A DNA stretch of 22,608 nucleotides from a virus. The position numbers were made by a program, and so were the translations under genes. The stretch's first letter is position 1; each line of letters begins with the position of its first letter. This document shows, piece after piece, positions 1-22,608 of the stretch. Under the pieces are notes generated by a model. It did no database searches, was not told the origin of the DNA, and worked only from the letters and a program-made list of their open reading frames with translations. Where the stretch lies: positions 1 to 22,608 of the IMG/VR virus record IMGVR_UViG_3300036770_004297; one strand, given 5' to 3'.

Positions 1-2
1 AT

Positions 3-1391: not shown

Positions 1392-1402
1392 GATAGTAAA
1401 AC

Positions 1403-3265: not shown

Positions 3266-3284
3266 GGCAGCATAGGAGCGATAG

Positions 3285-7634: not shown

Positions 7635-7635
7635 C

Positions 7636-8061
7636 ATGATAATTTTATTCGAACAAGAAGATGGCAAGATAGGAATATTACATCCGGCCGATGGAAAAAC
7701 TTTCGACGATATACAAGGTGATATCCCCGAAGGGGCTAGATATAAGATATCATCTCTTGAACTTCTTCCAAGCGATTTGGATCTAAAAGAATTTACTGAT
7801 GCATTAAGGGTCGATTTTGATTCAGAATCGGAATATCTTTATTTCGATATCAATATAGCTAGAGAAATAACAAAGGATAGACTTAGATACGAAAGGACTC
7901 CGTTTTTCGAGAAAAACGATATAGAATTGCGAGATGCTATTCTAGATGAAGATACAGAAAAGAAGACAATAGCAATAGCAGAAAGAAATAGATTGCGAGA
8001 TTTACCATTGCTTGCAGACTCGGCTAACGACTTAGAATCATTGAGGAATTTACACCCATAA
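7636..8061 (+). CDS. Probable tail fibre assembly chaperone-like protein
   Basis: This 141-residue acidic protein lies between fibre genes, one base after the giant fibre gene. The C-terminal half (about residues 75-126) is predicted helical, with AREITKDRLRYERTPFFEK, an acidic helix, then IAERNRLRDLP. This layout (a KxxLRxxR helix, a short acidic spacer, and a helix ending xRxxLRDLP) matches the C-terminal part of phage tail fibre assembly/tail chaperone proteins, as I know the family. The N-terminal half (ILFEQEDGKIGILHP) is beta-like. Known relatives help fibre trimerisation and are not always part of the virion. The position directly after the longest fibre fits that role. The assignment rests on pattern and context; a small structural protein remains possible. 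No clear ribosome site is seen, so translation is probably coupled to the gene before it. Confidence 0.6.
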   Translation: MIILFEQEDGKIGILHPADGKTFDDIQGDIPEGARYKISSLELLPSDLDLKEFTDALRVDFDSESEYLYFDINIAREITKDRLRYERTPFFEKNDIELRDAILDEDTEKKTIAIAERNRLRDLPLLADSANDLESLRNLHP

Positions 8062-8077
8062 TACGGTAAATATAGAT

Positions 8078-9682
8078 ATGGCATATCAAATTGACTTATT
8101 TAATGGTGATTTTCTAGTAAACATAGATGATCAAACGATTAACACAACGGCTACTGATCTACGCTTAGTAGGTCGGAATTATGCCGGATACGGTGAAATA
8201 CAGAATGAAAATTTTGTACATCTTCTAGAAAATTTCTCTAGCAGCACAGCTCCGCCTAGATCGTTGACTGGTCAAATTTGGTATGATTCGTCTACGAAGA
8301 AATTAAAGTTTTTTGACGGAACAAAGTATAAAACAGCCAGCGGGGCTGAAGTTTCAGAAACTCCGCCACCAGGATTGAGCTCGGGAGAATTTTGGTTCGA
8401 TTCAGTAGAAGAACAACTCTATGCCTGGTCAGGAACAGAATATATCTTAGTTGGCCCAGAAAGAACTCCTACAGTTGGAGATACAGCAGCAATACCGAGA
8501 GTTATTAAGGATACGCTAGGCGCTGATAGAAGCATTTTACAATTAGTTTCAGGTAATAGGGTTATTGCTATTATATGCGATGACGAATTTACTATCAATA
8601 ACACTATCAATCCTATAGATGGATTTTTTAATATCCGTCCTGGTATAACATTGCTTAACATTGATATAGATGGTATAGCTACAACATCTAATCATAGATT
8701 ATGGGGAACAGCCACCAACTCACAGAGATTAAATGGGCTTACTAGCTCTGATTTTTTGCGGGCATCGAACACAGAATTTAAAACACAGGTAAAATTTTTA
8801 GACACCGGATTTACTCTTGGCGATCAAAATGATTTGCGTATACGAGTTGTTAATGGCAACGAGCCAGTTATAGAAAATGCATTAGGCGGTAGCTTAATGT
8901 TTAGAATAACTTCTGGTATAGAATCTAAAGACGTTTCTATAATTCAACAAGATGGATTATTCCCAGGAAGCAACGAACAATATAAATTAGGCAAGCCCGG
9001 TATTAGATGGAAAGAAGTTCATTCAGAAGAAATAACAGCGAATAGATTTTATGGTACTTTTGTCGGAACGATAGAATCTCCGGCTCCGGGAACTCCGGGC
9101 GGTCCTCCAATAGGACAGCCAGTTCCACCTTTAACATTACAATCAGGATTATCTGTAGCCGGCGATTTAGAAATGGATACCGGTAATCTAAATATAATAC
9201 TCCCTGAAGGTAATACGGTTGATATTAGATCCGGTGATAAAGGAATAATCGATAATGTCGATGTAAACCCGTTTAATGCAGGAACCGGAAGTTTTACAAA
9301 TTTATCAGTCTCACAAAATAGCAGTATTACTGCTACTAATGAAAGCACTTCTATTACAACCGGTGCTTTGATTATTTCAGGTGGTTTGGGGGTAGCGAAA
9401 AATCTCAATGTTGGAGGTAATGGTGCCTTCACAGGAAGCGGAAGTTTACGAGTACCAGTCGGCGATACTGCTCAAAGACCTGAAGTTGCTGTGATTGGAA
9501 TGATTAGATTCAACACAGATATAGAAAATTTCGAAGGGTTTGACGGAGAAAATTGGAGAGAAATTGGTTTAGCAGCTTCTGAAGATTTCGGAGAACTAAC
9601 TGGATCAGTGGCTCTTTCATTAGACTATAGATTCGTTAATGAAGAAGTTGATTCCTTCGCAGATTATGGGTCATTATTTTAA
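8078..9682 (+). CDS. Virion structural/tail fibre protein, shared-adaptor paralogue 3
   Basis: This 534-residue protein begins with the shared adaptor, residues 1-128: GRNYAGYGEIQNENF, LLENFSS, GQIWYD, LKFFDG, FWFDS-QLYAWSG and LVGPE. A middle region follows, including KLGKPGIRWKEVHSEEITA, which is a version of the 'LG-x-RW-x-x-V/L' fibre motif also present in its neighbours. A proline/glycine-rich hinge lies at roughly residues 334-350 (PAPGTPGGPPIGQPVPP). An STSITTGALIISGGLGVAKNLNVGG motif then leads into PVGDTAQRPEVAVIGMIRFN...FEGFDGENW (about 459-500), a domain common at fibre ends. The acidic C-terminal tail has no recognised function. No enzyme motif is seen. The ribosome site before the ATG at 8078 is weak. 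Confidence 0.85.
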   Translation: MAYQIDLFNGDFLVNIDDQTINTTATDLRLVGRNYAGYGEIQNENFVHLLENFSSSTAPPRSLTGQIWYDSSTKKLKFFDGTKYKTASGAEVSETPPPGLSSGEFWFDSVEEQLYAWSGTEYILVGPERTPTVGDTAAIPRVIKDTLGADRSILQLVSGNRVIAIICDDEFTINNTINPIDGFFNIRPGITLLNIDIDGIATTSNHRLWGTATNSQRLNGLTSSDFLRASNTEFKTQVKFLDTGFTLGDQNDLRIRVVNGNEPVIENALGGSLMFRITSGIESKDVSIIQQDGLFPGSNEQYKLGKPGIRWKEVHSEEITANRFYGTFVGTIESPAPGTPGGPPIGQPVPPLTLQSGLSVAGDLEMDTGNLNIILPEGNTVDIRSGDKGIIDNVDVNPFNAGTGSFTNLSVSQNSSITATNESTSITTGALIISGGLGVAKNLNVGGNGAFTGSGSLRVPVGDTAQRPEVAVIGMIRFNTDIENFEGFDGENWREIGLAASEDFGELTGSVALSLDYRFVNEEVDSFADYGSLF

Positions 9683-9701
9683 GAGATAATAGGAGTTAAA
9701 A

Positions 9702-10361
9702 ATGGCAAAGAGAGTACAATTTAGGAGAGGAACAACCGCACAACACGCTCTGTTTGTTGGTGCTCCTGGCGAGATTACCGTAGATACAGACAAAAAAATC
9801 GTAGTTGTTCACGACGGAGCTACGCCCGGCGGGTTTCCTGCTAATAGATTGCAAGACATTGACGGAACTGCAACTTTTTCAGCACAGGTAAACATTAATG
9901 CAGGGATACCAAGTACTTCTACAACTACTGGTGCATTGGTTGTAGATGGTGGATTGGGCGTATCAGGTAAGCTTAATGTTACTGAATTAGCAGTTTCTGG
10001 AACCACACAAATAAATGAAATTACAGAAGTATTAACGGTGGTTAATGATTACGGTACTACACAATCTCGTCCATTTTCGGACGGTAATGTTTTTTTACTA
10101 AACGGGCTAACGGGTAATTATATTTTTAACTGGACTGGTATACCGACAACAGAGAACAGAACGTTTTCTCTATCACACATAATTTCACAAGGAGCCACCC
10201 CGAGAATTCCGTCAGCTCTACAAATTAACGGAACACCAGTTACCATTAACTGGGCGGGAAATATAACTCCTACAGGCGGAGTGAACAGAATTAATATAAT
10301 TTCGTTTTTATTATGGTATACAGGAACTTTTACTTGTGTAGCAGCATTAAGTTCTTATTAA
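9702..10361 (+). CDS. Structural protein with Mtd-N-like N-terminal domain
   Basis: This 219-residue protein has AGGAG at 9691-9695, six bases before the ATG. Residues 1-45 (QFRRGTTAQHALF, GEITVDTDKK, VVVHDGATPGG) match the short beta domain known from the N-terminus of the major tropism determinant (Mtd_N, PF18454 type), found at the head of many phage fibre proteins. An STSTTTGALVVDGGLGVSGKLNV motif follows at about residues 70-90. The C-terminal ~110 residues (TGNYIFNWTGIPTTENRTFSL, QGATPRIPSALQINGT, INWAGNITPTGG, ISFLLWYTG, SSY end) fit a compact beta-domain that recurs in marine T4-like structural proteins. It is probably a small fibre or baseplate decoration. No variable-repeat or reverse transcriptase signature of a diversity-generating element accompanies it in the window. 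Confidence 0.8.
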   Translation: MAKRVQFRRGTTAQHALFVGAPGEITVDTDKKIVVVHDGATPGGFPANRLQDIDGTATFSAQVNINAGIPSTSTTTGALVVDGGLGVSGKLNVTELAVSGTTQINEITEVLTVVNDYGTTQSRPFSDGNVFLLNGLTGNYIFNWTGIPTTENRTFSLSHIISQGATPRIPSALQINGTPVTINWAGNITPTGGVNRINIISFLLWYTGTFTCVAALSSY

Positions 10362-10373
10362 AAAGGATTACAG

Positions 10374-12170
10374 ATGGCCTATCAAGTAAATCGATATAAT
10401 GGTAGCTTCCTGGTTTCAGTCGCAGACGGAACTATCGATTCTTCGACAGATATACGTTTTCTTGGAAAAAACTACGCCGGTTACGGACAGGTCCAGAATG
10501 AAAACTTTTTACATTTATTAGAAAATTTTTCCGGCGCTAGTCAGCCAATTAAGCCAATATCGGGTCAGTTGTGGTTTGACACAGTTGACAGAAAAATAAA
10601 AGTATATGATGGTATACGTTTTAGAATAGTCGGAGGATCAACGTCTTCAAATAGTCCTCCAACCGGTTTATCTACTGGCGAATTCTGGTTTGATAATTTA
10701 GCACAACAGCTTTACTGTTGGTCTGGATCAGATTTTGTGTTAATAGGACCAGAAAATCCTTCTTCCTTAGGAGAAACTTCAGTTGCTTCTCAGGTAGTCA
10801 AAGATGAAAACGGTAATAATCATACTATTGCAAAATTTAGATCCGGCGGACAAACCATTGCTGTAGTGAGTAAAGATGCATTTAATTTAAACTTAGCATT
10901 GTTGGCAGGTAGCAGTGAACTAGCCGGATTTGGTAGGATTAAGAAAGGTATTACATTAGTTGATACTAATAATGACAGCGGAGTTTCGTCGTTAGTTTCT
11001 GGTGCTATACTTTGGGGAACAGCTCAAACAGCGAAAAATCTAATTGACGATCAGGGAAATTTATTTCCAATTACAAGTATAGTAAGAACGGATTCTCCAG
11101 TCTTTCAGTCAAATGTTGTCTTTAGGAATGGTCTTGCTCTAGGCGCTGTATCAGATCCCAAGCTTAGTATTACATTAACTGACGAAATATCACCTAACCT
11201 TATCTGCCAAACTGGACAGCCAATTAGTTTTAAAATAAGGACCGAAGGCCAGATTAGAGAAATAGCTTCTATTTCTGTAACAGGAATAAATCCAGGAACA
11301 GGGTCTCAGTATAGATTAGGATCTGAAACAAATAAATGGTTACAAGTATACGCAGATAATATATCAGGTAACTTAGTCGGATCTGTTTTAGGTAATACTG
11401 TAGGGGTACATACAGGAAATGTTCTAGCACAAGATAATGCAGTAATTATAAATTCCACTACCAAGGTAATTACAGCTAATTCCTTCCAGGGAGAATTTAT
11501 CGGTGATTTGTCGGGCAACGCTGCAACTGCTACTAACGCCCTGAAATTAAATGATTTAAATGTAAGCGGTGCTGCTTTGCCCAATACCGTAGCTATAAGA
11601 GATAATTCCTCTAATATTACTGCCGCACAGTTTGTTGGAATAGCCACGCAATCTAATAAATTAAAGATTGATAATGCTGCTGATGATAGCGGAGATCTTA
11701 ATTATAAAACAGCGAAAACGAATCGTTCTCCATTATCGATAGCAGCTAGAGATAGTGCAGGAAACATATTTGCTAATATTTTTAACGGTACTGCTACAGC
11801 AGTTGAGGGTGCGGACCTAGCAGAAAAATATCATACTGATCAGGTATATGATGTTGGAACTGTGATTGTAGTTGGCGGAGAAAAGGAAGTTACATCGAGT
11901 TCTAAAGGTGACAGAGCGATCGGCGTAATATCCGGTAATCCAGGATTACGAATGAATTCAGAATTTGAAGACGGAACATATATTGCTTTAAAAGGTCGAG
12001 TACCGGTGAAAGTGGTTGGTAAAGTTTTCAAAGGCGATAGATTAGTTGCTGACAATAACGGTGTAGCATGCGTAGCACGAGACGTGGCTGAATATCATAA
12101 TATTTTTGCTATAGCATTATCTAGTAGCGATATCGATGATGTAAAATTAGTAGAGTCTGTAATAATTTAA
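10374..12170 (+). CDS. Tail fibre protein, shared-adaptor paralogue 4, with peptidase G2-like C-terminal domain
   Basis: This 598-residue protein has AAGGA at 10363-10367 before the ATG. Residues 1-128 are the shared adaptor (GKNYAGYGQVQNENF, LLENFSG, GQLWFD, IKVYDG, LIGPE). The shaft includes YRLGSETNKWLQVYADNIS, a GNLVGSVLGNTVG segment, and SGNAATATNALKL. From about residue 477 to the end comes a distinct domain: EGADLAEKYHTD, VYDVGTVIVVGG, GVISGNPGLRMN, YIALKGRVPVKVVG, KGDRLVADN. This resembles the C-terminal domain annotated in phages as peptidase G2 / intramolecular chaperone autoprocessing domain (PF11962 type), which in known cases helps the fibre trimerise and may then be cut off. Whether this copy self-cleaves cannot be told from the sequence. 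Confidence 0.85.
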   Translation: MAYQVNRYNGSFLVSVADGTIDSSTDIRFLGKNYAGYGQVQNENFLHLLENFSGASQPIKPISGQLWFDTVDRKIKVYDGIRFRIVGGSTSSNSPPTGLSTGEFWFDNLAQQLYCWSGSDFVLIGPENPSSLGETSVASQVVKDENGNNHTIAKFRSGGQTIAVVSKDAFNLNLALLAGSSELAGFGRIKKGITLVDTNNDSGVSSLVSGAILWGTAQTAKNLIDDQGNLFPITSIVRTDSPVFQSNVVFRNGLALGAVSDPKLSITLTDEISPNLICQTGQPISFKIRTEGQIREIASISVTGINPGTGSQYRLGSETNKWLQVYADNISGNLVGSVLGNTVGVHTGNVLAQDNAVIINSTTKVITANSFQGEFIGDLSGNAATATNALKLNDLNVSGAALPNTVAIRDNSSNITAAQFVGIATQSNKLKIDNAADDSGDLNYKTAKTNRSPLSIAARDSAGNIFANIFNGTATAVEGADLAEKYHTDQVYDVGTVIVVGGEKEVTSSSKGDRAIGVISGNPGLRMNSEFEDGTYIALKGRVPVKVVGKVFKGDRLVADNNGVACVARDVAEYHNIFAIALSSSDIDDVKLVESVII

Positions 12171-12179
12171 GGATGTATA

Positions 12180-13109
12180 ATGACTGTAGCAGGAAATAAA
12201 GTACAGGCATCGGATTTCAATGGAGTACATAGTACAGCTACTACTCTGATTGGATCTGGATCTGTGACCAGAGGCTATGGACAATCGATAAAATCTGGAT
12301 CGACACTGCCTATCGGTACAACAGTTAGTCCGGGATATTTAGATGGATTACGAAATGATCTATTTAATATTCGCGCTCATCAAATAGGAACAGCCCCTGC
12401 ATTGGCCGAAACCGCAGTTGTGGGAAACATTATCACAGCAACTGATATCGCTACTTTTACTACATATTCTAATCTTTGCGACAGCGATAGATTTACAGCA
12501 GATAATTCTAGAATGAGTGTTATGATCAGGGGAAGTGGAACTAGAACTTCGTCATGGGTGTCATCGGTGTCTGTGACCGTTACTTTAACATTCACTAGTT
12601 CAGCGGTATCTAGATATTTCTGGAACGCAGGAGGGGAGGTAAGAATTACTTCTTCAAGAGGTGGTGGTTCTTCATCAGCTCAGAATACTTCTTGGACAAA
12701 CTTATTAAGCGGTGCAGGAACTAGAAGTTTCGGAGCATCGACAATATATTCTTTACCACAGTCGCCTACTTATTCACAGCTATTTACTACAACAGCAACA
12801 GCTCCTTATGCCAGTAATAGATACACAATAGAATCTAGAGCCGTTGGGGCAACAGGTGCAAGTGGCAACGCTGGATCATTTGATTTTAGGTTAACTTATG
12901 CAGATCCATATGTAGATCCTGCTCCAGGACAGCCACCGGCTCCGGATGATATAGTAGACGGAGTTTTAGCGTACAGTATTGAGTTAAGATATCCAACGGG
13001 CGGAGCAGCCCTATCTGGCGGCGGAAATTGGGTAGGATTTAACGACACTGGCGCTGGCGGCTATTATAGGCTTCCATCATTTTCTGCAACTGCGATAAGC
13101 GGATCTTAA
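12180..13109 (+). CDS. Phage structural protein, probable tail fibre/tip
   Basis: This 309-residue protein has AAGGAT at 12169-12174 overlapping the stop of the previous gene. The N-terminal ~75 residues (SDFNGVHSTATTLIGSGS, GYGQSIKS, a TVSPGYLDGLRNDLFNIRAHQIG stretch) fit a conserved head found in many marine myovirus structural proteins, typically an iGtGsG-GYGQ motif followed by LRxD...HQxG. The remainder is Ser/Thr/Gly-rich beta structure (VSVTVTLTFTSSAVSRYFWNAGGEVRI), with a proline-rich segment near residue 245-255 (PAPGQPPAPDD) and a Gly-rich end. It is the last gene of the fibre module. No catalytic motif is visible, and receptor binding is only an inference from context. Confidence 0.75.
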   Translation: MTVAGNKVQASDFNGVHSTATTLIGSGSVTRGYGQSIKSGSTLPIGTTVSPGYLDGLRNDLFNIRAHQIGTAPALAETAVVGNIITATDIATFTTYSNLCDSDRFTADNSRMSVMIRGSGTRTSSWVSSVSVTVTLTFTSSAVSRYFWNAGGEVRITSSRGGGSSSAQNTSWTNLLSGAGTRSFGASTIYSLPQSPTYSQLFTTTATAPYASNRYTIESRAVGATGASGNAGSFDFRLTYADPYVDPAPGQPPAPDDIVDGVLAYSIELRYPTGGAALSGGGNWVGFNDTGAGGYYRLPSFSATAISGS

Positions 13110-13165
13110 ATTTTTTCCATCAGAGTATTGTGATTAAATAAACTACTAGTTTATTGGGAGATCTA
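13110..13165. promoter_or_regulatory. 56-base gap with a perfect 9-bp inverted repeat; possible promoter or operator
   Basis: This is the largest gap in the plus-strand gene series. It holds AATAAACTA (13137-13145), a one-base spacer, and TAGTTTATT (13147-13155), a perfect inverted repeat ending just before the GGGAG ribosome site at 13156-13160. A TAAATA core at 13135-13140 resembles the 3' part of the T4 late promoter TATAAATA, but the first two bases do not match. The run TTTTTT at 13112-13117 has no GC-rich stem in front, so a terminator is not supported. A role as operator or promoter is inference. Confidence 0.3.
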
Positions 13166-13516
13166 ATGGAAGAAAAATTAGCACAGATTCTGAAAGTTGC
13201 TGATTATCGACAATCTTTGGCAATTAAAAGAAAAGCATTAAAAGAAAAGATCGAAGGCAAGTTGACATTCGGCCATGCCGGCGGCATATTTAAAATAGAT
13301 CAATCGTTAATACTATTCACCCAATTTCTTATAGATCAAGAAAGAACAACCAATGTTGTGTTGTTAGATCATAACGATAATCCTATTCTTATAACCGATT
13401 TAGTCAAGTTCAAAGAAGAAATAATGGAACGATACTTTACTTCATTATTTGAGTATTATGAACAATATGAAACAATTAAAAAAAGCAGAACTATTGAAAA
13501 ATTATTAGAATCATGA
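13166..13516 (+). CDS. Small conserved-looking phage protein of unknown function
   Basis: The ATG at 13166 is preferred over the upstream TTG at 13154 because GGGAG (13156-13160) stands five bases ahead of it, which gives 116 residues. The protein is charged and mostly helical: EEKLAQILKVADYRQSLAIKRKALKEKIEGKL, then LTFGHAGGIFKID, IDQERTTNVVLLDHNDNPI and a helical tail (FEYYEQYETIKKSRTIEKLL). I recognise the style from T4-like marine phages, where similar proteins are annotated as hypothetical or possible structural components, but I cannot assign a function. Its stop overlaps the ATG of the first glycosyltransferase by four bases (ATGA at 13513), so it probably leads the second operon-like block. 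Confidence 0.75.
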   Translation: MEEKLAQILKVADYRQSLAIKRKALKEKIEGKLTFGHAGGIFKIDQSLILFTQFLIDQERTTNVVLLDHNDNPILITDLVKFKEEIMERYFTSLFEYYEQYETIKKSRTIEKLLES

Positions 13517-14355
13517 ATAATGGGGTGTTGATACTTGCTCATAACAGCGAGTATGTGGACTATGGTCGATTATCGTTGATATCGGGAAGCTTGGCCAAGA
13601 GATATTTAAACGTATCTGTCAGTCTTGCGGCCGATCGCCATACTCTTGATTGGATGAATTCAAATAAGGATTTACAAATCGCAGAACGTGTATTTGATCA
13701 TATAATAGAAATTCCGCATAAGAATGAGAATAATTTTAGAATTTTACACGATGGCGAATCTCATAAAAAGATTCCATTTCTTAACGCTGATAGATTTACA
13801 GCATATGATATAACACCTTATGAAAAAACACTTTTAATTGACTCTGATTTTTTAATTTTTTCTAATCAACTAAATGAATATTGGTCGATGAATGCTCCGG
13901 TCATGGTATCGTCGGGTATTATCGATATAAAAGGGGATAGATTAAGGATATTAGATAAAAAAGTATCTGACACCGGAATTGACATGCTGTGGGCTACTAC
14001 CGTTATGTTTGATAAAAGTCAAGAATCTAAGTGTTTTTTTAACACAGTCAATCTTATTAAAGAAAATTATAGACATTATTCTGATTTGTATAGGTTCGAT
14101 CATAAATCGTACAGAAATGACATAGCCTTTAGTCTGGCATTGCATATGTTGAACGGATTCAGTTTAGATTCTGTTCCTATGCTTCCGAAAATTGTTACTT
14201 TTTTTGATACAGATGAAATTGTATCTATTATAGGAAATAAGATTACATTTTTACTAGATCAAGAATTTCTAGCATCTATCTCTGATCAAGATTTTCATGC
14301 GATGAACAAGCAGAGCATTTTAAGAAACAGCGAAAAGTTTTTGAGTTTAATATGA
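13513..14355 (+). CDS. Glycosyltransferase, GT8-like (GT-A fold, DSD motif)
   Basis: This 280-residue protein starts at the ATGA overlap with the previous gene. The N-terminus GVLILAHNSEYVDYGRLSLISGSLAK suits the first beta-alpha unit of a nucleotide-sugar-binding domain. The segment LNADRFTAYDITPYEKTLLIDSDFLIF places a DSD at residues 110-112, the expected metal/nucleotide-binding DxD after a hydrophobic strand. A later RNDIAFSLALHML segment lines up with TDEAFSLSASIL in the next protein, so the two are paralogues. Known GT-A enzymes of this kind transfer a sugar from a nucleotide donor using a divalent metal. Donor and acceptor cannot be read from the sequence. There is no signal peptide or membrane segment, so it is cytoplasmic. 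Possible targets, both inferred, are phage fibres or host surface glycans. Confidence 0.7.
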   Translation: MNNGVLILAHNSEYVDYGRLSLISGSLAKRYLNVSVSLAADRHTLDWMNSNKDLQIAERVFDHIIEIPHKNENNFRILHDGESHKKIPFLNADRFTAYDITPYEKTLLIDSDFLIFSNQLNEYWSMNAPVMVSSGIIDIKGDRLRILDKKVSDTGIDMLWATTVMFDKSQESKCFFNTVNLIKENYRHYSDLYRFDHKSYRNDIAFSLALHMLNGFSLDSVPMLPKIVTFFDTDEIVSIIGNKITFLLDQEFLASISDQDFHAMNKQSILRNSEKFLSLI

Positions 14356-15197
14356 ATTTTGGATACCTACTAATCGTAAATACCGATGCCGAGTATGACT
14401 ATTTAAAAATGGCCTATGCATTAGCATTAAGTATTAAGAATACTCAAGCCTTGGGATACGATAACGTTGCACTAATAATCAATGATAAAAATAAAATAGA
14501 TACTATTAAATCTCCTTGGGTATTTGATATTGTTATTGAAGAAGAAAAACTTCAATCTGGATGGTTAGGTCGTAGCTATATGGATTCATTATCGCCTTTT
14601 GATCATACAGTTTGCTTAGATGTTGATATGTTGTTTTTACGAGATTATAGTCATTGGATTGATTATTTTATTAAGAATAATGACTTATATGTTACTAGTC
14701 AGTGCTTTACTTATAGAGGCGATAAAGTTACTAGCGATTACTATCGAAAATTTTATAAAAATAACCAGATGCCAGAACTTTATTCAATGTACACATTTTT
14801 TAAGAAAGATTCAGAACTTACAAAAAGTTTCTTTGATATGGCAAGATCGATCATTGATCATCCAAAAGAATTTAAAAATAAATTTTACAAATCAGGACAC
14901 AACGAAATCATAGGAACAGACGAAGCATTTTCCTTGTCGGCCAGCATTTTAGATATTACGGACGATATATCATACGATCTTGAATTTCCTAGAATAGTTC
15001 ATATGAAACCGATGATTCAAGAATGGCCGTGGCCTGCCGATAGCTGGTCAGATCATGTGGGATTTTATTTGAACACTCGAGGTAATTTAAAAATTGGAAA
15101 TTTTCAACAATACGATATCGTTCATTATGTTGAAAAAAACACAATCACTGATGAGCTAATCAGTATTTTAGAAGAGATAGCATGGAAGAAACATTAG
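14352..15197 (+). CDS. Glycosyltransferase, GT8-like (DVD motif)
   Basis: This 281-residue paralogue of the previous protein starts in another ATGA overlap. It begins FGYLLIVNTDAEYDYLKMAYALALSIKN, the usual opening of GT8-like enzymes in which a set of Ala/Ser helices follows the first strand. DVD stands at residues 90-92 within SPFDHTVCLDVDMLFLRDY. HNEIIGTDEAFSLSASIL (about 183-200) fits the acidic D-E-A element of such enzymes, and FPRIVHMKP (about 212-220) carries a His in the position where GT8 members have a donor-phosphate ligand. It therefore looks catalytically complete. Specificity is unknown. The following gene starts inside this one, 16 bases before its end. Confidence 0.72.
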   Translation: MNFGYLLIVNTDAEYDYLKMAYALALSIKNTQALGYDNVALIINDKNKIDTIKSPWVFDIVIEEEKLQSGWLGRSYMDSLSPFDHTVCLDVDMLFLRDYSHWIDYFIKNNDLYVTSQCFTYRGDKVTSDYYRKFYKNNQMPELYSMYTFFKKDSELTKSFFDMARSIIDHPKEFKNKFYKSGHNEIIGTDEAFSLSASILDITDDISYDLEFPRIVHMKPMIQEWPWPADSWSDHVGFYLNTRGNLKIGNFQQYDIVHYVEKNTITDELISILEEIAWKKH

Positions 15198-15760
15198 TAG
15201 AATTTCAAAAGAAATTTCATAACTTAATTGATGATACAAAATATTTCTTTGTCTATGATATCGAAGGAAACGTAGAAGCATTGCAGCCCACTAGCATGTG
15301 CGGCAATGAAAAATTCTCTGTTGAAGTATCGAAGGATATCGTAGATCTAATACATACAAATCAAGAAGTTTTATCTTCTTATAAAGTAGACGTAGTTAGC
15401 AGATCTATTTTTAAGAAAAAGTCTATAGATATAGTTAGCATCGACGATGTCGTGCATCGAATCATTGAAAAGAAATACACCACTCGAGAACCAGATATAT
15501 CTATCTTGTATGATAATTCGAAAAAATGTTTAAAATTTTCTTTAAACTCTAAACATCATAATACTATATGGTCTGGAAATACTTCTTTGTATTTTACAGT
15601 AACGAAATATAATGACCCCAATGATATATTAAGTTTTATCAGTTTTCCTGTCGAAAGTCTTATTTCTGAAGATATAAAAATTGATGTATCATATGTCACA
15701 GAACGATTCAGTCTGTATACGAGGCGGATATTTAAAAATTACGTCGTGGAATATCTATGA
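15182..15760 (+). CDS. Unknown protein embedded among glycosyltransferase genes
   Basis: I do not recognise this 192-residue protein. The ATG at 15182 lies 16 bases inside the preceding gene, with a GAAGAGA purine run just upstream. The N-terminal half is mixed alpha/beta and acidic (FQKKFHNLIDDTKYFFVYDIEGN). The C-terminal half looks beta-rich (ISILYDNSKKCLKFSLNSK, TSLYFTVTKYNDPNDIL, IDVSYVTERFSLYTRRIF). No DxD, Cys cluster, signal peptide or membrane segment is visible. It ends in an ATGA overlap with the next gene, so it is co-translated with the sugar-transfer genes. It could be an accessory or carbohydrate-binding subunit, or a structural protein; neither is supported by a motif. Confidence 0.7.
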   Translation: MEETLVEFQKKFHNLIDDTKYFFVYDIEGNVEALQPTSMCGNEKFSVEVSKDIVDLIHTNQEVLSSYKVDVVSRSIFKKKSIDIVSIDDVVHRIIEKKYTTREPDISILYDNSKKCLKFSLNSKHHNTIWSGNTSLYFTVTKYNDPNDILSFISFPVESLISEDIKIDVSYVTERFSLYTRRIFKNYVVEYL

Positions 15761-16641
15761 AAATAACAGATTTAGATGTGATCTTTATCAGCTACGATGA
15801 ACCTAATGCTGAAATAAATTACGCCGACCTATGCAATAAAGTGCCATGGGCTAAAAGAGTTCATGGAATAAAGGGGAGCGATGCTGCACACAAGGCAGCA
15901 GCCAATCTTTCAGAATCTGATTGGTTAATAACTGTCGATGCTGATAATATTGTCAATAATGAGTTTTTTAATCTCGAAATAGACTTACAATCTGCGAACG
16001 TTAAAGTTTTTAGTTGGTTAGCAAAAAACAATGTCAACGGATTAATGTATGGTAATGGCGGATTAAAAATATGGAAGAAAGAGTTTATTTTAAATATGAA
16101 AACGCACGAAGAAAGTACTTCGGAAAGAGCCCAAGTTGATTTTTGTTGGGAAGACGGCTATAGGCAGTTCTTTTCATGTTACAGCGAGACTGTGATCACA
16201 GGTACTCCGTTTCAAGCCTGGAGAGCAGGGTTCCGCGAAGGAGTAAAAATGACACTAGTCGATGGAGTTCGTGTTCCGTCAAAAGAAATACAACAACGTG
16301 TTTGGTGGCATAATCTTCATAGACTAAAAATTTGGTCGACAATAGGGGCACATGTAGAAAATGGAATATACTCAGTATTAGGGGCTAGATTAGGTAACTG
16401 GATGGCTAATTGCAGCGATTGGAATTATGTCGACGTGAGAGATTTTGAAATACTAAAAGAAATTTATGAAACACAGGTAAATCATAATGATCCTACAGAG
16501 CAAGTCATAGAATTAGGAGAAAAGTTAAAATTAGGTTTAGGAATTTCATATCCTTTCTTTGATACAGATAGTAGCAGATATATGCACGATACCTATTTAG
16601 AAACAATAAATTTAGCAAGGACTTACTATAAAGATGTATGA
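15757..16641 (+). CDS. GT-A-like glycosyltransferase family protein (DAD motif)
   Basis: This 294-residue protein starts in an ATGA overlap. It opens DVIFISYDEPNAEINYADL, then PWAKRVHGIKGSDAAHKAAA and WLITVDADNIV, placing DAD at residues 61-63. The arrangement (first strand, a short RVxGxKG segment, an Ala-rich helix, then strand plus DxD) is that of a GT2-like GT-A nucleotide-sugar domain. The middle carries GNGGLKIWKKEF, and the C-terminal half PFQAWRAGFREGVKM and LKIWSTIGAHVENGIYSVLGAR. All these elements recur in the C-terminal domain of the next protein, so the two are homologous over almost their full length. I have seen this style of protein annotated as hypothetical in T4-like marine phages. 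Glycosyltransferase activity is inferred from the fold signature; donor and acceptor are unknown. Confidence 0.65.
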   Translation: MKITDLDVIFISYDEPNAEINYADLCNKVPWAKRVHGIKGSDAAHKAAANLSESDWLITVDADNIVNNEFFNLEIDLQSANVKVFSWLAKNNVNGLMYGNGGLKIWKKEFILNMKTHEESTSERAQVDFCWEDGYRQFFSCYSETVITGTPFQAWRAGFREGVKMTLVDGVRVPSKEIQQRVWWHNLHRLKIWSTIGAHVENGIYSVLGARLGNWMANCSDWNYVDVRDFEILKEIYETQVNHNDPTEQVIELGEKLKLGLGISYPFFDTDSSRYMHDTYLETINLARTYYKDV

Positions 16642-18418
16642 TATATTTTACATAGGAAACCAGTCCGTTGACGATGACTCTTGGAGTAAATTTTCTAAAA
16701 GATTTCCTAGAGCACAAAAAGTTGAAAACGTAGAATCTCTAGATCAACTTAAGACTAAATCATTCACTAAATTTTTCTGGGTAGTACCGGACGATATAAC
16801 AATCTTGGATGATTTTGATTTTAGTTATGTGGTGCCTATATGGGACGAACCATATATTAATGTATTTAAAAATGGAAAATATTATAACGGGGTTACAATT
16901 TTTTCAAAAAATCATTCTATTTCGAAAAAAGAATGGAACAATAGGTTTTTTATAAATCGAAAAGAAATAGATATTCCGGCCAGTATACCCAAATATTCAT
17001 ATCAAGATATATTATATGTGTCTAGTGAAAATGCAAGCGAAACAGACTGGAATCAATTTCGCAGATCATATCCTCGATCAAAACTTGTAGAAAATGTTAA
17101 ATCTTTCGATGACATAAAAGCAGTATCAGACACTAATTTTTTCTGGGTAGTATGGGACGACATTGAAATTTTAAAAGATTTTAATTTTGAATATCAGATA
17201 CCTCCATGGGATGAAAAATATGTTCATGTATTTAAAAATGGAAAATATTATAACGGAGTTGCGATCTTTTCAAAAAATCATTCCATTTCGAAAAAAGAAT
17301 GGAACAATAGATTTTTTATAAATCGAAAAGAAATAGATATTTCGGCCAGCGTACCAAAATATTCACTCCACGATATACTATATGTGTCTGATGAAAATGC
17401 AAGCGAAACAGATTGGAATCAATTTCGTAGATTATATCCTCGATCGAAACTTGTAGAAAATGTTAAATCTTTCGATGACATAAAAGCGGTATCGGATACT
17501 AATCTTTTTTGGGTAGTATGGGACGACATTGAAATTTTAAAAGATTTTAATTTTGAATATCAGATACCTCCATGGGATGAAAAATATGTTCACGTATTTA
17601 GGAATGGAAAATATTATAACGGGGTGACAATTTTTTCCAAAGAACATGCCGTATCACAGAGAGAGTGGGACTTTAGATTTTTTACAAATAAAAAAGAAAT
17701 CAACTTATTAGCCAGTGTTCCAAGAGAAACCATTTTCGATATAATTTTTTTAAGTTACGACGAACCATATGCTGATGAAAATTTTAAAAAGTTACAAGAT
17801 AGATTTCCAAATGCAAAAAGAGTACACGGAGTAAAAGGGTTACATCAAGCACACATTAGAGCGGCTGAAATTTCTGAGACTGAGATGTTCTGGGTAGTAG
17901 ATGCGGATGCTGAAGTTTTAGATACCTTTAATTTTGATTTTATAGAGCCAGAAAGATTTACAGTCTATGTCTGGAATAGTATTAATCCTATAAACGGATT
18001 AGAGTACGGATATGGCGGCGTAAAATTGTTTCCTAAACGACTAGCATTGAATATGCAATTAAACACAACTGATGTAACAACTAGTGTTTCTATAAAATTT
18101 GAAAGAATAAATTACGTGTCTAATATCACTAGATTTAATATTGATGCTTTCTCAACCTGGAGATCTGCATTTAGAGAATGTGCGAAGCTATCGAGCAAAG
18201 TTATTGATAGAAATTACGAACCGGAAACAGATTTAAGATTAGAAACTTGGTGTACGATAGGTGAAGATAAACCCTATGGAAAATATGCAATAGCAGGAGC
18301 GATTGAAGGTAAAAAGTTTGGTGAAATTAATATTGGAAACACAGAAGTGCTGTGCTTCGTAAATGACTTTGAATGGCTAAAAGATAGATTTGATAAATGG
18401 GCAGAAAGCAATGAATGA
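16634..18418 (+). CDS. GT-like protein with three degenerate tandem N-terminal modules and one complete C-terminal domain
   Basis: This 594-residue protein overlaps the preceding gene by eight bases. Aspartates at residues 3, 125, 247 and 369 mark four module starts exactly 122 residues apart. Modules 1-3 each run from DI(F/L)Y(I/V), through a P-R-x-x-VENV segment and FFWVV(P/W)DD, to NGKYYNG...FSK and a KKEI end. Module 4 continues into a full domain: FLSYDEPYADENF, AKRVHGVKG, FWVVDADAEV (DAD at 423-425), GYGGVKLFPK, FSTWRSAFRECAK and LETWCTIGEDKPYGKYAIAG, matching the previous protein. In modules 1-3 the first Asp of DxD is replaced by Pro or Trp while a DD remains, so they may not bind a metal-nucleotide and could instead bind a partner or acceptor. 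No frameshift or stop interrupts the repeats. Function is inferred only from the C-terminal homology. Confidence 0.7.
   Translation: MYDIFYIGNQSVDDDSWSKFSKRFPRAQKVENVESLDQLKTKSFTKFFWVVPDDITILDDFDFSYVVPIWDEPYINVFKNGKYYNGVTIFSKNHSISKKEWNNRFFINRKEIDIPASIPKYSYQDILYVSSENASETDWNQFRRSYPRSKLVENVKSFDDIKAVSDTNFFWVVWDDIEILKDFNFEYQIPPWDEKYVHVFKNGKYYNGVAIFSKNHSISKKEWNNRFFINRKEIDISASVPKYSLHDILYVSDENASETDWNQFRRLYPRSKLVENVKSFDDIKAVSDTNLFWVVWDDIEILKDFNFEYQIPPWDEKYVHVFRNGKYYNGVTIFSKEHAVSQREWDFRFFTNKKEINLLASVPRETIFDIIFLSYDEPYADENFKKLQDRFPNAKRVHGVKGLHQAHIRAAEISETEMFWVVDADAEVLDTFNFDFIEPERFTVYVWNSINPINGLEYGYGGVKLFPKRLALNMQLNTTDVTTSVSIKFERINYVSNITRFNIDAFSTWRSAFRECAKLSSKVIDRNYEPETDLRLETWCTIGEDKPYGKYAIAGAIEGKKFGEINIGNTEVLCFVNDFEWLKDRFDKWAESNE
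16640..17737 (+). repeat. Three consecutive 366-base (122-residue) modules
   Basis: Modules begin at 16640, 17006 and 17372, and the related but longer fourth domain begins at 17738. All three intervals are exactly 366 bases with no insertion or deletion. Module 1 is the most diverged in its first half; module 3 is the most diverged in its second half. Confidence 0.95.
16860..17591 (+). repeat. Recent 366-base tandem duplication out of phase with the protein modules
   Basis: Bases 16860-17225 and 17226-17591 are direct tandem copies with about 26 differences by hand count (roughly 93% identity). The unit runs from the second half of module 1 through the first half of module 2, and its copy from the second half of module 2 through the first half of module 3. 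An unbroken match of about 80 bases sits at the right-hand part of each copy. Confidence 0.85.
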
Positions 18419-19826
18419 ATATATCAAAGGCGATAAGATTAAAATAATCGATGGAAAGATATACTCAGGATATAGTTTAAATGCTAAAACAGTATTTGAT
18501 CAGCTAAATGAAGTTAGCCCTAGTTTTTGTCTTGCGAAATGGTATAACGTAAGTATCCATATTCCAACCGGCCAGACTCATAGTTGTTATCATCCTCGTA
18601 GCCATAAAATACCGTTAGATGAAATAAAAATAAATGTCGATGCGCTACATAATACCAAGTATAAAAAGTTACAAAGAGAAAAAATGCTGAACGGTGAAAG
18701 ACCCGAAGAGTGTAATTATTGCTGGCAAGTTGAGGATAGTGGAAATCAGTTAAGTGATAGAGCATATCGATCTAAAGATGTTTATGAAGACGGGCTAATC
18801 AAAGAAGCGGTTAACACAGCGAATCCCATGCCAAGATATGTAGAAGTCAATTTTAATCAAGCGTGTAATTTTCGCTGCTCGTATTGTAGTCCACATCTTT
18901 CTACCGCCTGGCAAAAAGATATAGAAAAAAACGGTCCTTTTAAAATTGCTGATAGGTGGCACAATGATCTAAATTGGATGAAGAAGGATATGATGCCTGA
19001 CAATTCTTTGTCTAATCCATACTTGTTAGCTTTCTGGGAATGGCTTCCTACAATATATCCGACACTGCAAACTTTTAGAATGACCGGCGGTGAACCATTG
19101 ATGGATAAAAATACATTTAAAATGTTCGATTACATTTATAGTCATCCTAAGCCAGATTTAAATCTCAGTATCACTTCTAATTGTTGCCCTCCAGGAAATC
19201 AATGGCAAAAATTTATGGATTCGTTGAATGCTGTGGTACAGAAAGATGCTATAGATCATTTTATGTTATTTTGTAGTTTAGACAGCTGGGGACCACAAGC
19301 AGAATATATTAGAGATGGTATGAATTTTAACTTGTTGCTGTCTAATATTAATGATTTTTTATCTAGAGGATCAAAGCATAGTCTTTCTTTTATAATCACG
19401 TTTAATGTATTAAGTTATCCTAGATTTAAAAAATATTTGGAAGAAATATTAAACTTAAGAAAAATTTACAGTAACGATAGACAATTGATATGGTTTGACG
19501 TACCGCAATTGCATTATCCAGAATGGTTGAATCCTAAAATTAATTTAGAAATGCTAGGCGAACTCGAGCAATGTTTAGAATTTATGAAAATTCACGAAGA
19601 AACACCGTCTACGCGGTTTAAAGGCTTTAAAGATTTTGAAATAAGTAAGGTTCAACGATTAATTGATTGGATAAAAACTCCTCCAGACTTTAATATAGAT
19701 CTACAAATGAAAAATTTTTATCTATATTTTAGCGAACATGATAGAAGAAGAACAACTAATTTTATAGAAATCTTTCCAGAGTTTGAAGATTTTTATAATC
19801 GATGTAAGGACAAATCAAATGCCTAG
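18411..19826 (+). CDS. Radical SAM protein with N-terminal twitch-like Cys region, paralogue 1
   Basis: The ATG at 18411 is chosen over an upstream TTG at 18390; it overlaps the previous gene by eight bases and gives 471 residues. An N-terminal Cys region comes first: C40 (SPSFCLAKW), C59 (SCYHPRSH), C101 and C104 (ECNYCW). The radical SAM signature CNFRCSYC follows with C152, C156 and C159, then a GGE SAM-binding motif in RMTGGEPL (226-228). AEYIRDGM and a C-terminal DRRRTTNF...FPEF close the pattern. This layout fits the twitch-domain-containing radical SAM family, in which a half-SPASM auxiliary-cluster region lies before the radical SAM core. Such enzymes cleave S-adenosylmethionine to start radical chemistry using a 4Fe-4S cluster; the N-terminal Cys set could hold a second cluster. 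The substrate is unknown. Confidence 0.88.
   Translation: MNEYIKGDKIKIIDGKIYSGYSLNAKTVFDQLNEVSPSFCLAKWYNVSIHIPTGQTHSCYHPRSHKIPLDEIKINVDALHNTKYKKLQREKMLNGERPEECNYCWQVEDSGNQLSDRAYRSKDVYEDGLIKEAVNTANPMPRYVEVNFNQACNFRCSYCSPHLSTAWQKDIEKNGPFKIADRWHNDLNWMKKDMMPDNSLSNPYLLAFWEWLPTIYPTLQTFRMTGGEPLMDKNTFKMFDYIYSHPKPDLNLSITSNCCPPGNQWQKFMDSLNAVVQKDAIDHFMLFCSLDSWGPQAEYIRDGMNFNLLLSNINDFLSRGSKHSLSFIITFNVLSYPRFKKYLEEILNLRKIYSNDRQLIWFDVPQLHYPEWLNPKINLEMLGELEQCLEFMKIHEETPSTRFKGFKDFEISKVQRLIDWIKTPPDFNIDLQMKNFYLYFSEHDRRRTTNFIEIFPEFEDFYNRCKDKSNA
19805..19810 (+). promoter_or_regulatory. Ribosome binding site deciding the start of the second radical SAM gene
   Basis: TAAGGA lies eight bases before the ATG at 19819, inside the 3' end of the previous gene. 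It favours this ATG over the in-frame TTG at 19783, which has no such site. Confidence 0.6.
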
Positions 19827-21168
19827 ACTAGATAATGAGACTGACTTTGAGTATAAGAAAAGAGTATTAGATAAACTGTCTCCTAGTTTTTGCGGAGCTA
19901 AATGGTACAATGCTACAATATGGTTAGGCAGTGGTCGAACTACCAGTTGTCATCATCCGCCAGCGCATTTTATTAGTGTAGAATCAGTAAAAGCCAACTA
20001 TAAGGCATTGCATAATACACCTGAAAAGAAAGAAGATAGACGTAAAATGCAATTAGGCGAAAGACCTACTGGTTGTGAATATTGCTGGAAGATAGAGGAT
20101 ATGGGATCAGATGTTGCTAGTGATAGACCAGATAAGAGTGCTAGGTATAGCGACGAAGATTTATCTATAGCTAAAAATTTAGATTATAACGAAGACATAA
20201 ATCTACAGACATTGGAAATTGCTTTTGACCGAACCTGTCAATTCGCTTGTAGTTATTGTAATCCTGCATTTTCTACTACATGGGTAAAAGATATAAAAAA
20301 ATCTGGACCATACATAAATTTGGTAACAGATGGAAGAGGGCATTTTACTCATGTACATTCAAATGATCAATTATATGATTACAATGAAGATAACCCTTAT
20401 GTTGATGCCTTTTTTCAATGGTGGGAATCGGATTTACACAGAACATTAAGTGAATTAAGAATAACTGGAGGAGAGCCGTTAATGAGCGGTCATACCTGGA
20501 AGTTGTTCGAATGGTTTGAAAAGAATAAACAAAAAAGCCAGACAAAACTGGCTATTAACTCTAATTTAGGATTTGAAAAATCTCTCTTGATAAAAATGTT
20601 AGATGCTACGGAATATACTAGTTTAACCATTTATTCGAGTAATGAGAGTGTTGGTAGTCAAGCTGAATACATTCGCGATGGTTTAGATTGGAACCAATGG
20701 AAAGAAAACATGGAGTTTCTATTAGAATCAAAACGATTAGATAGTTTAAATGTCATGTGTACAATCAATGCACTGTGCTTAGATTCTCTATGTCAATTTC
20801 TCGATTTGATAGTTCAGTGGAAAAGAAAGTATACGCCATCTGCGATAATGTTCAGCTTAAACATAATGAGATTTCCGAGTTTTCAAGGATGTTTGGTCTT
20901 GCCATCCTCTTTAAGAACATATTATAAAGAACAGTTATTGAATTGGTATAATAATAATATTCACCATCTACATAACTTTGAAAAAAATCATGTCGAACGA
21001 TTAATAGATTATTTAGATAAAGTAAATATTCCTCACGGGGAGGGTTTCGATCGAAATATGGCAGAGAGAGATTTTAAAAATTTTTATCAGCAATACGACC
21101 TTAGACGAAATAAAAATCTTTCAGAAACGTTTAGTCAGAGACTAGTGGATTGGTATACTCAATTATAA
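19819..21168 (+). CDS. Radical SAM protein with N-terminal twitch-like Cys region, paralogue 2
   Basis: Starting at the ATG at 19819 gives 449 residues and an eight-base overlap with the previous gene. Cys region: C25 (SPSFCGAKWY), C44 (SCHHPPAH), C86 and C89 (GCEYCW). The radical SAM motif CQFACSYC has C140, C144 and C147, and RITGGEP has GGE at 217-219. AEYIRDGLDW and the end motif YDLRRNKNL...DWY repeat the pattern of the first paralogue. The text between the two Cys regions (HNTPEKKEDRRKMQLGERP) is close to that of paralogues 1 and 3, so all three descend from one gene. Every cluster-binding Cys is present, so it should be active. The stop codon abuts the ATG of the third copy. The substrate is unknown; three copies in a row suggest sequential or alternative substrates. 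Confidence 0.88.
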   Translation: MPRLDNETDFEYKKRVLDKLSPSFCGAKWYNATIWLGSGRTTSCHHPPAHFISVESVKANYKALHNTPEKKEDRRKMQLGERPTGCEYCWKIEDMGSDVASDRPDKSARYSDEDLSIAKNLDYNEDINLQTLEIAFDRTCQFACSYCNPAFSTTWVKDIKKSGPYINLVTDGRGHFTHVHSNDQLYDYNEDNPYVDAFFQWWESDLHRTLSELRITGGEPLMSGHTWKLFEWFEKNKQKSQTKLAINSNLGFEKSLLIKMLDATEYTSLTIYSSNESVGSQAEYIRDGLDWNQWKENMEFLLESKRLDSLNVMCTINALCLDSLCQFLDLIVQWKRKYTPSAIMFSLNIMRFPSFQGCLVLPSSLRTYYKEQLLNWYNNNIHHLHNFEKNHVERLIDYLDKVNIPHGEGFDRNMAERDFKNFYQQYDLRRNKNLSETFSQRLVDWYTQL

Positions 21169-22461
21169 ATGAATACTCCAAAAGATTTTAAAATTAAATT
21201 TATGGATCCGATTAGCGATAGTTGGTGTGCTGCTAAATGGTTTGAAGGAACTATTTGGTTATATAAAGGAATGACTGCTAGTTGTCATCATAATCCGTTC
21301 CATCAGATCGAATTAGACGATAATCCTGCTTCTTTACATAATACTCCACAAAAAATAAATGAACGTAAAGATATGTTAAGCGGAAATAAACCTGAAGGAT
21401 GTAATTATTGTTGGAGCATAGAAAAAAGTGGTGGAGTAAGTGACCGAATAGAAAAAACTAGAGCTACTCCGATAGAAAGAATTATCAGTTGGAAAGATAG
21501 TGGAAAATCTCTAGTGGAAATTCCATATATGTTAGAAATAGCTTTTGAACGAACGTGTAATTTGGCGTGTTCATACTGTAGTAGTGATTTTAGTAGTAAG
21601 TGGGTTAATGATCTTAAAGCTCATGGTCCGTATTCTAACATTAAAACAGACTCACGATATTTTAAAATTAGTGAAGTAATTGAACCTGAAAACAATCGAT
21701 ACATTGAAGCTTTTTTTATATGGCTTCCTGAACTAGTTAAAAAATTAATTAATATAAGAATAACTGGCGGGGAACCTTTGTTAAGCAATAGTTTCTGGAA
21801 ATTTTTAGATTCGGTAGAATCTTTAGGGTACAGTGGAAAGATATCAGTTAATACAAATCTAATTAATAAAAAAGGGGAGATACAGAGATTAATCGATAAA
21901 TCTAAAAGTTTAGATATAATTCTTTATACAAGTATTGAAAGTAATTTCAATGATGCCGAGTATACTAGAGATGGATTTGATAGAGAGTTATGGACAAATA
22001 ATTTAACTAGAATCTTAAATGAAACTTCGATACCTGTAATAATATCTACCAGTATTAATAATATCAGTGTTTGGACATTTATCGAGTTAGTTAAAATGAT
22101 TATCGAGTACAAGAAAAAATATGGAACTAATAGAATCACAATGGGATGTAACTTTGTGCATTATCCAGTTTTCATGCGTGTTAAATTAATCGATATCTAT
22201 AATAGATTAAAATTAGTAACACAATTACAACAATTAATTTCGAGTAATACAGAATTTTTTATAGATTCTGAAATTGTACAGTTTGATAGATTTTATACCA
22301 TTATGTCTGATCCCGATAATGGAATTGAGGAATCGTATATTAGTTTAAATGATGTATACAATGACTTAAAATCATTTATTACACAGTATGATAGCCGAAG
22401 GAATAAGAATTATAAATCGCTATCGTCAGAATTTATTAGTTGGTATGACTCTATTAATTAA
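21169..22461 (+). CDS. Radical SAM protein with N-terminal twitch-like Cys region, paralogue 3
   Basis: This 430-residue protein starts directly after the TAA of paralogue 2 (TAAATG). Cys region: C20 (SDSWCAAKWF), C39 (SCHHNPFH), C78 and C81 (GCNYCW). CNLACSYC has C130, C134 and C137, and RITGGEPLL has GGE at 200-202. DAEYTRDGF and YDSRRNKN...SWYDS match the other two copies. It is the shortest of the three and the most A+T-rich by eye. No visible ribosome site other than A-rich sequence precedes the start, so translation is probably by re-initiation. The chemistry is as for the other two copies; the substrate is unknown. The gene ends where a minus-strand gene ends, with overlapping stop codons. 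Confidence 0.88.
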   Translation: MNTPKDFKIKFMDPISDSWCAAKWFEGTIWLYKGMTASCHHNPFHQIELDDNPASLHNTPQKINERKDMLSGNKPEGCNYCWSIEKSGGVSDRIEKTRATPIERIISWKDSGKSLVEIPYMLEIAFERTCNLACSYCSSDFSSKWVNDLKAHGPYSNIKTDSRYFKISEVIEPENNRYIEAFFIWLPELVKKLINIRITGGEPLLSNSFWKFLDSVESLGYSGKISVNTNLINKKGEIQRLIDKSKSLDIILYTSIESNFNDAEYTRDGFDRELWTNNLTRILNETSIPVIISTSINNISVWTFIELVKMIIEYKKKYGTNRITMGCNFVHYPVFMRVKLIDIYNRLKLVTQLQQLISSNTEFFIDSEIVQFDRFYTIMSDPDNGIEESYISLNDVYNDLKSFITQYDSRRNKNYKSLSSEFISWYDSIN

Positions 22462-22607
22462 AATAGATCATTTGTCGAATCAGTGATATCTTTTTTCAAC
22501 CTCTCGATATCCATTTCAAAATCAATTTTTTTTATTTCTTCTCTGTATTCTTGAAATATTGAAAGTAATTTATCTGCAACAGTTTCGCTTTCTTCTTCGT
22601 CTAATTG
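22458..22607 (-). CDS. Acidic coiled-coil-like protein, C-terminal part only (5' cut by window edge)
   Basis: On the minus strand a frame is open from the window edge to a TAA at 22460-22458, giving the last 49 residues. The text is acidic and helical: LDEEESETVADKLL, SIFQEYREEIKKIDF, MDIERLKKDITDS, with heptad-like hydrophobic spacing. I do not recognise the family. The frame is the only open one on that strand with protein-like composition, and the plus strand here has no continuing gene. Its stop overlaps that of the last radical SAM gene, so the two are convergent. Confidence 0.6.
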   Translation of the reverse strand, partial: QLDEEESETVADKLLSIFQEYREEIKKIDFEMDIERLKKDITDSTNDLF

Positions 22608-22608
22608 A

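Follow-up and report, generated by a model that had tools for sequence, protein, structure and literature searches.

Three N_Twi radical SAM enzymes with a four-cysteine N-terminal segment are encoded behind tail-fibre and glycosyltransferase genes in a phage

In reviews of the radical SAM enzymes, the twitch and SPASM domains are described as C-terminal extensions (PMC9012708, PMC10470005). Radical SAM genes near phage fibre genes have been met in pelagimyophages, where, in the passages of the report considered here, radical SAM cassettes are reported in passing within a tail-fibre island rich in glycosyltransferases (mostly GT8), and O-chain modification is proposed for the GT8 genes (PMC7029224). 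None of the papers in the literature searched cited the NCBIfam model NF033640, N_Twi_rSAM, which represents a twitch domain-containing radical SAM family.

The locus analysed here lies in a complete IMG/VR record of 22,608 bases, and this whole stretch of DNA is called the window. Its bases 1-13109 are filled by tail-fibre and virion genes. They are followed by c4, two GT8-like genes, c6, GTB1, GTB2 and three radical SAM genes, which together make up the cassette. The features are as follows.

10374..13109, plus strand: tail-fibre-like gene and c3, directly upstream of the cassette; the gene at 10374 has PHROG tail and virion matches, and the order is kept in relatives
13133..13140, plus strand: ATTAAATA, degenerate T4-type late promoter core in a two-mismatch form, 33 nt upstream of the c4 ATG
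13166..13516, plus strand: c4, first cassette gene, about 116 aa without Cys; ATG start set by alignment to relatives, with 55 loci carrying c4 in the equivalent place
13513..14355, plus strand: GT8-like glycosyltransferase, copy 1, from a family profile match to glycogenin (GT8)
14352..15197, plus strand: GT8-like glycosyltransferase, copy 2, from the same profile match, with a DxD motif (D90/D92)
15182..15760, plus strand: c6, 192 aa, kept at the equivalent position in 49 loci
15757..16641, plus strand: GTB1, predicted GT-A-fold glycosyltransferase with DxD (D61/D63), from an AlphaFold2 model and a Bdellovibrionia ortholog
16634..18418, plus strand: GTB2, three DxD-less GTB-like repeats and then an intact predicted GT-A domain with DADA, from a Bdellovibrionia match and the repeats
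18411..19826, plus strand: N_Twi radical SAM enzyme 1, 471 aa from the ATG, from NF033640 (313.2 bits) and a structure model
19819..21168, plus strand: N_Twi radical SAM enzyme 2, 449 aa, from NF033640 (279 bits), in a separate ortholog clade
21169..22461, plus strand: N_Twi radical SAM enzyme 3, 430 aa, last cassette gene, from NF033640 (239.9 bits), in a separate ortholog clade

A TTG at 19783 offers a longer alternative reading of enzyme 2. The window phage has no SPASM radical SAM gene after enzyme 3, and its cassette has no sugar-nucleotide synthesis gene. At 22462-22608, on the minus strand, lies the end of an opposite-strand gene resembling cluster c8, with which the cassette ends in relatives.

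The three open reading frames at 18411-22461 are real, intact and co-directional, and their identity as N_Twi radical SAM enzymes, proposed by a first-pass annotation made from the sequence, is borne out by NF033640. All three proteins match nearly the whole profile at the scores listed above, where the curated cut-off is a whole-protein score of 170 bits. All three fall below the gathering cut-off of PF04055 (Radical_SAM; 20.8-27.3 versus 29.5 bits); motifs, NCBIfam model and fold agree on radical SAM. Weak Pfam matches to exonuclease III-like and other families were judged to be chance. The motifs pointed out by the first-pass annotation were recovered as well: each protein has C-x13-G-x4-C and CxxCW near its N-terminus, CxxxCxxC, GGE and DxRRxxN. 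Invariant among 55 phage and bacterial sequences are C40, C59, C101, C104, C152, C156, C159, G226-G227-E228, D444 and R446, and the strict DxRRxxN form is present in some relatives only. Judged at the level of motifs, all three enzymes appear active.

The model of enzyme 1 (pLDDT 94.1, pTM 0.91) has a partial TIM-barrel fold. It matches DesII with a Z of 13.5 (274 residues, 5.2 A), BlsE with 13.5 (217 residues, 2.9 A) and MoaA with 13.0. The top folds, DesII, BlsE, SkfB, MoaA and SuiB, are tied within about 1 Z and mix sugar or nucleoside enzymes (DesII, BlsE) with peptide and nucleotide enzymes, and fold does not separate a sugar from a peptide substrate.

Cysteines 40, 59, 101 and 104 precede the core cysteines 152-159, placing the auxiliary segment N-terminal to the barrel. 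In this the window proteins depart from the twitch/SPASM subgroup, in which the auxiliary segment lies C-terminal to the barrel. When the family-wide N-terminal segment was aligned by hhalign with the C-terminal domain of associated SPASM proteins, a match was obtained at a probability of 92-94% (E 5e-7 to 2e-7), versus less than 2% for a core control. The close clade alone, with few effective sequences, gave no match. StsB, SbtM and DynA align through their C-terminal region with the N-terminus of one phage paralogue. On these alignments the four-Cys segment is classed as homologous to the SPASM/twitch auxiliary domain and is a predicted cluster site. Such an N-terminal auxiliary domain stands in contrast to the C-terminal twitch architecture of the enzymes characterised so far.

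Glycosyltransferase genes are present upstream, as had been proposed, and the four of them form two families, one pair being GT8-like and the other of GT-A fold. A profile of the GT8-like family matched glycogenin (GT8) in the PDB over its first 100 positions (E 3e-6), and one family member matches Pfam GT8 at 7e-4; the window sequences on their own gave no single-sequence match. Among 30 members of this family, D92 is invariant and D90 nearly so. For GTB, a Pfam scan of the members found no family, and the fold was therefore needed for assignment; a PDB profile search gave chance matches only. The AlphaFold2 model of GTB1 (pLDDT 87.8) has a GT-A fold, with VIA Z values of up to 11.6 to GT-A enzymes, and the DxD (DGD/DAD) is conserved in the family, so that GTB is predicted to be a GT-A glycosyltransferase. 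Foldseek matches of GTB1 include the peptide S-glycosyltransferases ThuS and SunS. In GTB2, residues 366-592 match a Bdellovibrionia GTB2 at 39-45%. The three DxD-less repeats at its start (window 16634-17700) are about 120 aa each, and two are almost the same in sequence. In the set, the lengths of complete GTB genes above 330 aa span 347 to 1084 aa, which suggests gain and loss of repeats.

The coupling of radical SAM genes to glycosyltransferases behind tail fibres, noticed at first in this one sequence, holds reciprocally, whether the comparison is anchored on the arrays or on the glycosyltransferases. The recurring order is fibre, c3, c4, GT8, GT8, c6, GTB and N_Twi array. Anchored on arrays, 25 of 29 non-redundant arrays have GTB directly upstream. 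Anchored on glycosyltransferases, an array lies downstream in 90 of the 92 loci with room for one (84 directly after the GTB genes, 6 further on). Arrays apart from glycosyltransferases in related phages, which would speak against the coupling, amount to only 4/29, and two records with separated arrays (G003, G009) carry a GTB pair elsewhere in the same record. Accessory genes in relatives include SGNH-like, methyltransferase, GT9 and B12 radical SAM genes.

The first-pass annotation also called the triplicated set unusual, a view that the relatives contradict. An alignment search of IMG/VR found at least 512 related loci, and the best 80 were kept. Nearly all of these have 2-6 N_Twi copies; after near-copies were collapsed, 28 of 29 arrays had two or more, frequencies that describe a sample of the best-scoring 80 loci per scan, from genomes that are often incomplete. 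In one long record, 7 copies exceed the cut-off. Multi-copy arrays are thus the rule in an uncultivated, probably T4-like lineage, and since the family-typical array size is 2-6, three copies are not unusual. A recent triplication is ruled out: the window copies share about 30% pairwise identity, and in a tree in which some long-branch placements are unsure they fall into three different clades, each with same-order orthologs in other phages. We therefore take "triplicated" to mean ancient, specialised paralogues.

Sequenced phage isolates gave no close relatives: the only matches were two Vibrio phages, at 23% across 57% of the query, and GTB2, the second GT8-like gene and c4 were without a match. 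N_Twi arrays thus appear normal in uncultivated, probably T4-like phages and nearly absent from sequenced isolates. The Gp23 major capsid gene, whose region lies outside the 22.6-kb window, is found in 5 of 12 long relatives. In one long relative tested, gp23 is nearest to Sinorhizobium phage Phosso, a Vibrio phage and PA5oct-like phages (67-72%).

The window cassette genes overlap or abut. This packing leaves no room for a precursor-peptide gene, consistent with the earlier observation that none is nearby, and a RiPP precursor inside the cassette was ruled out for lack of space. These results bear on the possibility that the enzymes mature a peptide or protein without any glycan, cross-linking, methylating or epimerising a virion protein or a RiPP, with the glycosyltransferases as separate neighbours or as adders of sugar to a peptide. 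Peptide maturases are common among twitch/SPASM radical SAM enzymes, SkfB and SuiB are among the fold matches, and GTB1 resembles ThuS and SunS. However, these structural matches are distant and common to many glycosyltransferases, the cassette has no space for a precursor gene, and glycosyltransferases and arrays are reciprocally linked. We consider peptide maturation doubtful.

No exact TATAAATA, which PMC3037559 cites as the T4-type late promoter core, occurs in the window. Across relatives, 21 of 36 non-redundant loci have TATAAATA or CATAAATA 31-38 bases upstream of c4, compared with 8 of 97 for other gaps (Fisher p 5e-9). From this placement, the best reading of the cassette (13166-22461) is one late-expressed operon, as a prediction. 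Between the promoter-like element and the c4 Shine-Dalgarno sequence, the window carries a perfect inverted repeat at 13134-13155, AATAAACT-ACT-AGTTTATT, which is similar but variable in relatives. A transmembrane-like segment was found in none of the window cassette proteins and was absent from 51 of 55 cassettes; the four exceptions have marginal scores and are single proteins of radical-SAM length.

Weighing glycosyltransferase linkage, solubility, late expression and fibre adjacency places a glycan on a cytosolic acceptor first and remodelling of the host surface next. In the leading reading, which we hold at a probability of about 0.4, the cassette would be a late-expressed, all-soluble operon that makes and tailors a glycan, whose cytosolic acceptor would most likely be a virion (tail-fibre) protein encoded upstream. 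The two GT8-like and two GT-A-fold glycosyltransferases would build a sugar chain on this acceptor, for which the products of the tail-fibre-like gene and c3, encoded just upstream, are candidates. The three N_Twi enzymes would then perform distinct H-abstraction steps on the glycan; oxidation, deoxygenation or deamination, epimerisation and cross-linking are possible examples. The glycan substrate, the fibre-protein acceptor and the types of reaction are what we infer. The profile link between the GT8-like family and glycogenin, a protein-priming glycosyltransferase, was counted for this reading, as were DesII and BlsE among the top folds, the accessory genes of relatives and the Bdellovibrionia units described below, which have a SPASM radical SAM gene nearby; fold ties, separated arrays, the lack of a sugar-nucleotide synthesis gene and the lack, among the matches listed, of fibre genes beside the Bdellovibrionia units were counted against it. 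The first-pass annotation had suggested a pathway that matures a sugar, a lipid or a peptide. The evidence leans to a glycan on a cytosolic acceptor as the candidate substrate, and the pathway itself stays conjectural.

The same cassette could act on the host instead, altering LPS or another surface glycan during infection to block superinfection or the loss of virions to debris. This would agree with the pelagimyophage tail-fibre island, for which GT8 genes, radical SAM cassettes and a proposed O-chain modification appear in the passages considered (PMC7029224). The accessory genes (SGNH-like, methyltransferase and GT9) are similar to those of O-antigen clusters, and GmhA-like and HldE-like genes (both by eye) and GT2 genes (Pfam) are found close to N_Twi arrays in one Bdellovibrionia genome. 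But the 55 cassettes lack a membrane protein, a lipid-linked initiator, a flippase and a polymerase, and the late promoter also speaks against this reading. Host-surface remodelling is therefore rated unlikely, if less so than peptide maturation.

Outside phages, the best matches are mostly from Bdellovibrionia, a predatory class, together with one Pelagibacterales contig and one Flavobacterium contig. N_Twi genes occur in 30 of 99 Bdellovibrionia genomes and in 3 of 249 genomes from the phylum of the Pelagibacterales genome. The GTB family occurs in 8 of the 99, all within the 30 with N_Twi (hypergeometric p 3.4e-5, a value that ignores shared ancestry), and in none of the genomes of two other phyla (0/249 and 0/198; 0/447). 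Two of the bacterial units, in G078 and G044, have the order GTB, GTB, N_Twi, and G016 has GTB, N_Twi, radical SAM, SPASM. In the GTB tree, where one phage row (L054_GTB2) is a mis-cut long branch, phage GTB1 is joined by the long bacterial GTB (100/100 support) and phage GTB2 by the short GTB of G078 (98/93). Together with gene order, these groupings indicate that phage and bacterium share an orthologous, syntenic glycosyltransferase pair. In the bacteria, the N_Twi protein adjoining this pair mostly belongs to a different clade from window copy 1; the radical SAM partner thus comes from the same family without always being the same ortholog. That the core of the operon also sits in Bdellovibrionia chromosomes points to one shared chemical modification pathway. 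Phage fibre, c3, c4, c6 and GT8 profiles had no match beside the Bdellovibrionia units among the matches listed; it is thus the phage gene order that points to a fibre acceptor.

Several further cellular loci were observed. Four Bdellovibrionia genomes (G013, G016, G018, G020; loci L261-L268) are rich in N_Twi radical SAM genes, at 7-20 per genome; as many as about 13 fall within a single 35-kb stretch, and their neighbours are SPASM and B12-type radical SAM, GT2 and SGNH-like genes. In a Bdellovibrio MAG, an 834-aa double-length protein (N_Twi plus a second radical SAM domain; L087:8686-13505) is encoded between two flagellin genes. A Pelagibacterales MAG contig (L092) has an N_Twi gene in a polysaccharide-type cluster with two glycosyltransferases, epimerases and SGNH, assigned by eye, and this contig may be phage-derived.

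Bdellovibrionia arrays beside B12-type radical SAM, QueC-like and amidotransferase genes, together with DesII and BlsE among the closest folds, would suit a nucleoside- or aminoglycoside-like small molecule made by a pathway common to phage and predatory bacteria. Yet the window cassette consists only of glycosyltransferase and radical SAM genes and two unknowns, and it would be strange for the genes of a diffusible product to lie in a late operon behind fibre genes, so that we regard such a pathway as very improbable. A broader proposal is that GTB1/GTB2 and the N-terminal-twitch radical SAM enzymes, often with a SPASM partner, constitute a new glycan-modifying system of Bdellovibrionia and T4-like phages, that the phages use it late on their own receptor-binding fibres, and that the gene exchange suggests Bdellovibrionia are or were hosts; taken as a whole, it is speculative, and we would not bet on it.

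If a glycan is indeed the substrate, phages add radical chemistry to it late in infection, on the virion or the host surface. Current annotation would then overlook such chemistry, because standard models do not recognise the glycosyltransferase families and the genes are missing from cultured phages. Bdellovibrionia, with their chromosomal copies, are a second, possibly culturable source of the enzymes, through which substrate and reaction can be tested.

Set against described families, all three window proteins belong with NF033640, scoring far above its cut-off over the full profile. They share the CxxxCxxC partial TIM barrel with MoaA, SkfB and SuiB and, by fold, with DesII and BlsE. The homologous four-Cys auxiliary segment is likewise shared with the SPASM/twitch enzymes MoaA, SkfB and SuiB, N-terminal here and C-terminal there. 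At the level of gene clusters, the locus resembles the LPS gene clusters of cyanophages P-SSM2 and S-SSM7, T4-like phages with sugar-biosynthesis genes; these clusters, however, lie near hli03 or phoH and tRNAs, and radical SAM genes are unmentioned (PMC3037559). The likeness to the pelagimyophage host-recognition cluster, as far as the passages considered describe it, comprises a tail-fibre island, here of a probably T4-like phage, glycosyltransferases and added radical SAM cassettes, whereas the order GT8-GT8-c6-GTB-N_Twi, a late promoter and Bdellovibrionia orthologs do not figure in those passages (PMC7029224). Relative to these systems, the following is new: 1) the reciprocal synteny counts; 2) the placement of the late promoter; 3) the orthologous units in Bdellovibrionia; 4) the N-terminal auxiliary segment; and 5) the assignment of GTB to the GT-A fold.
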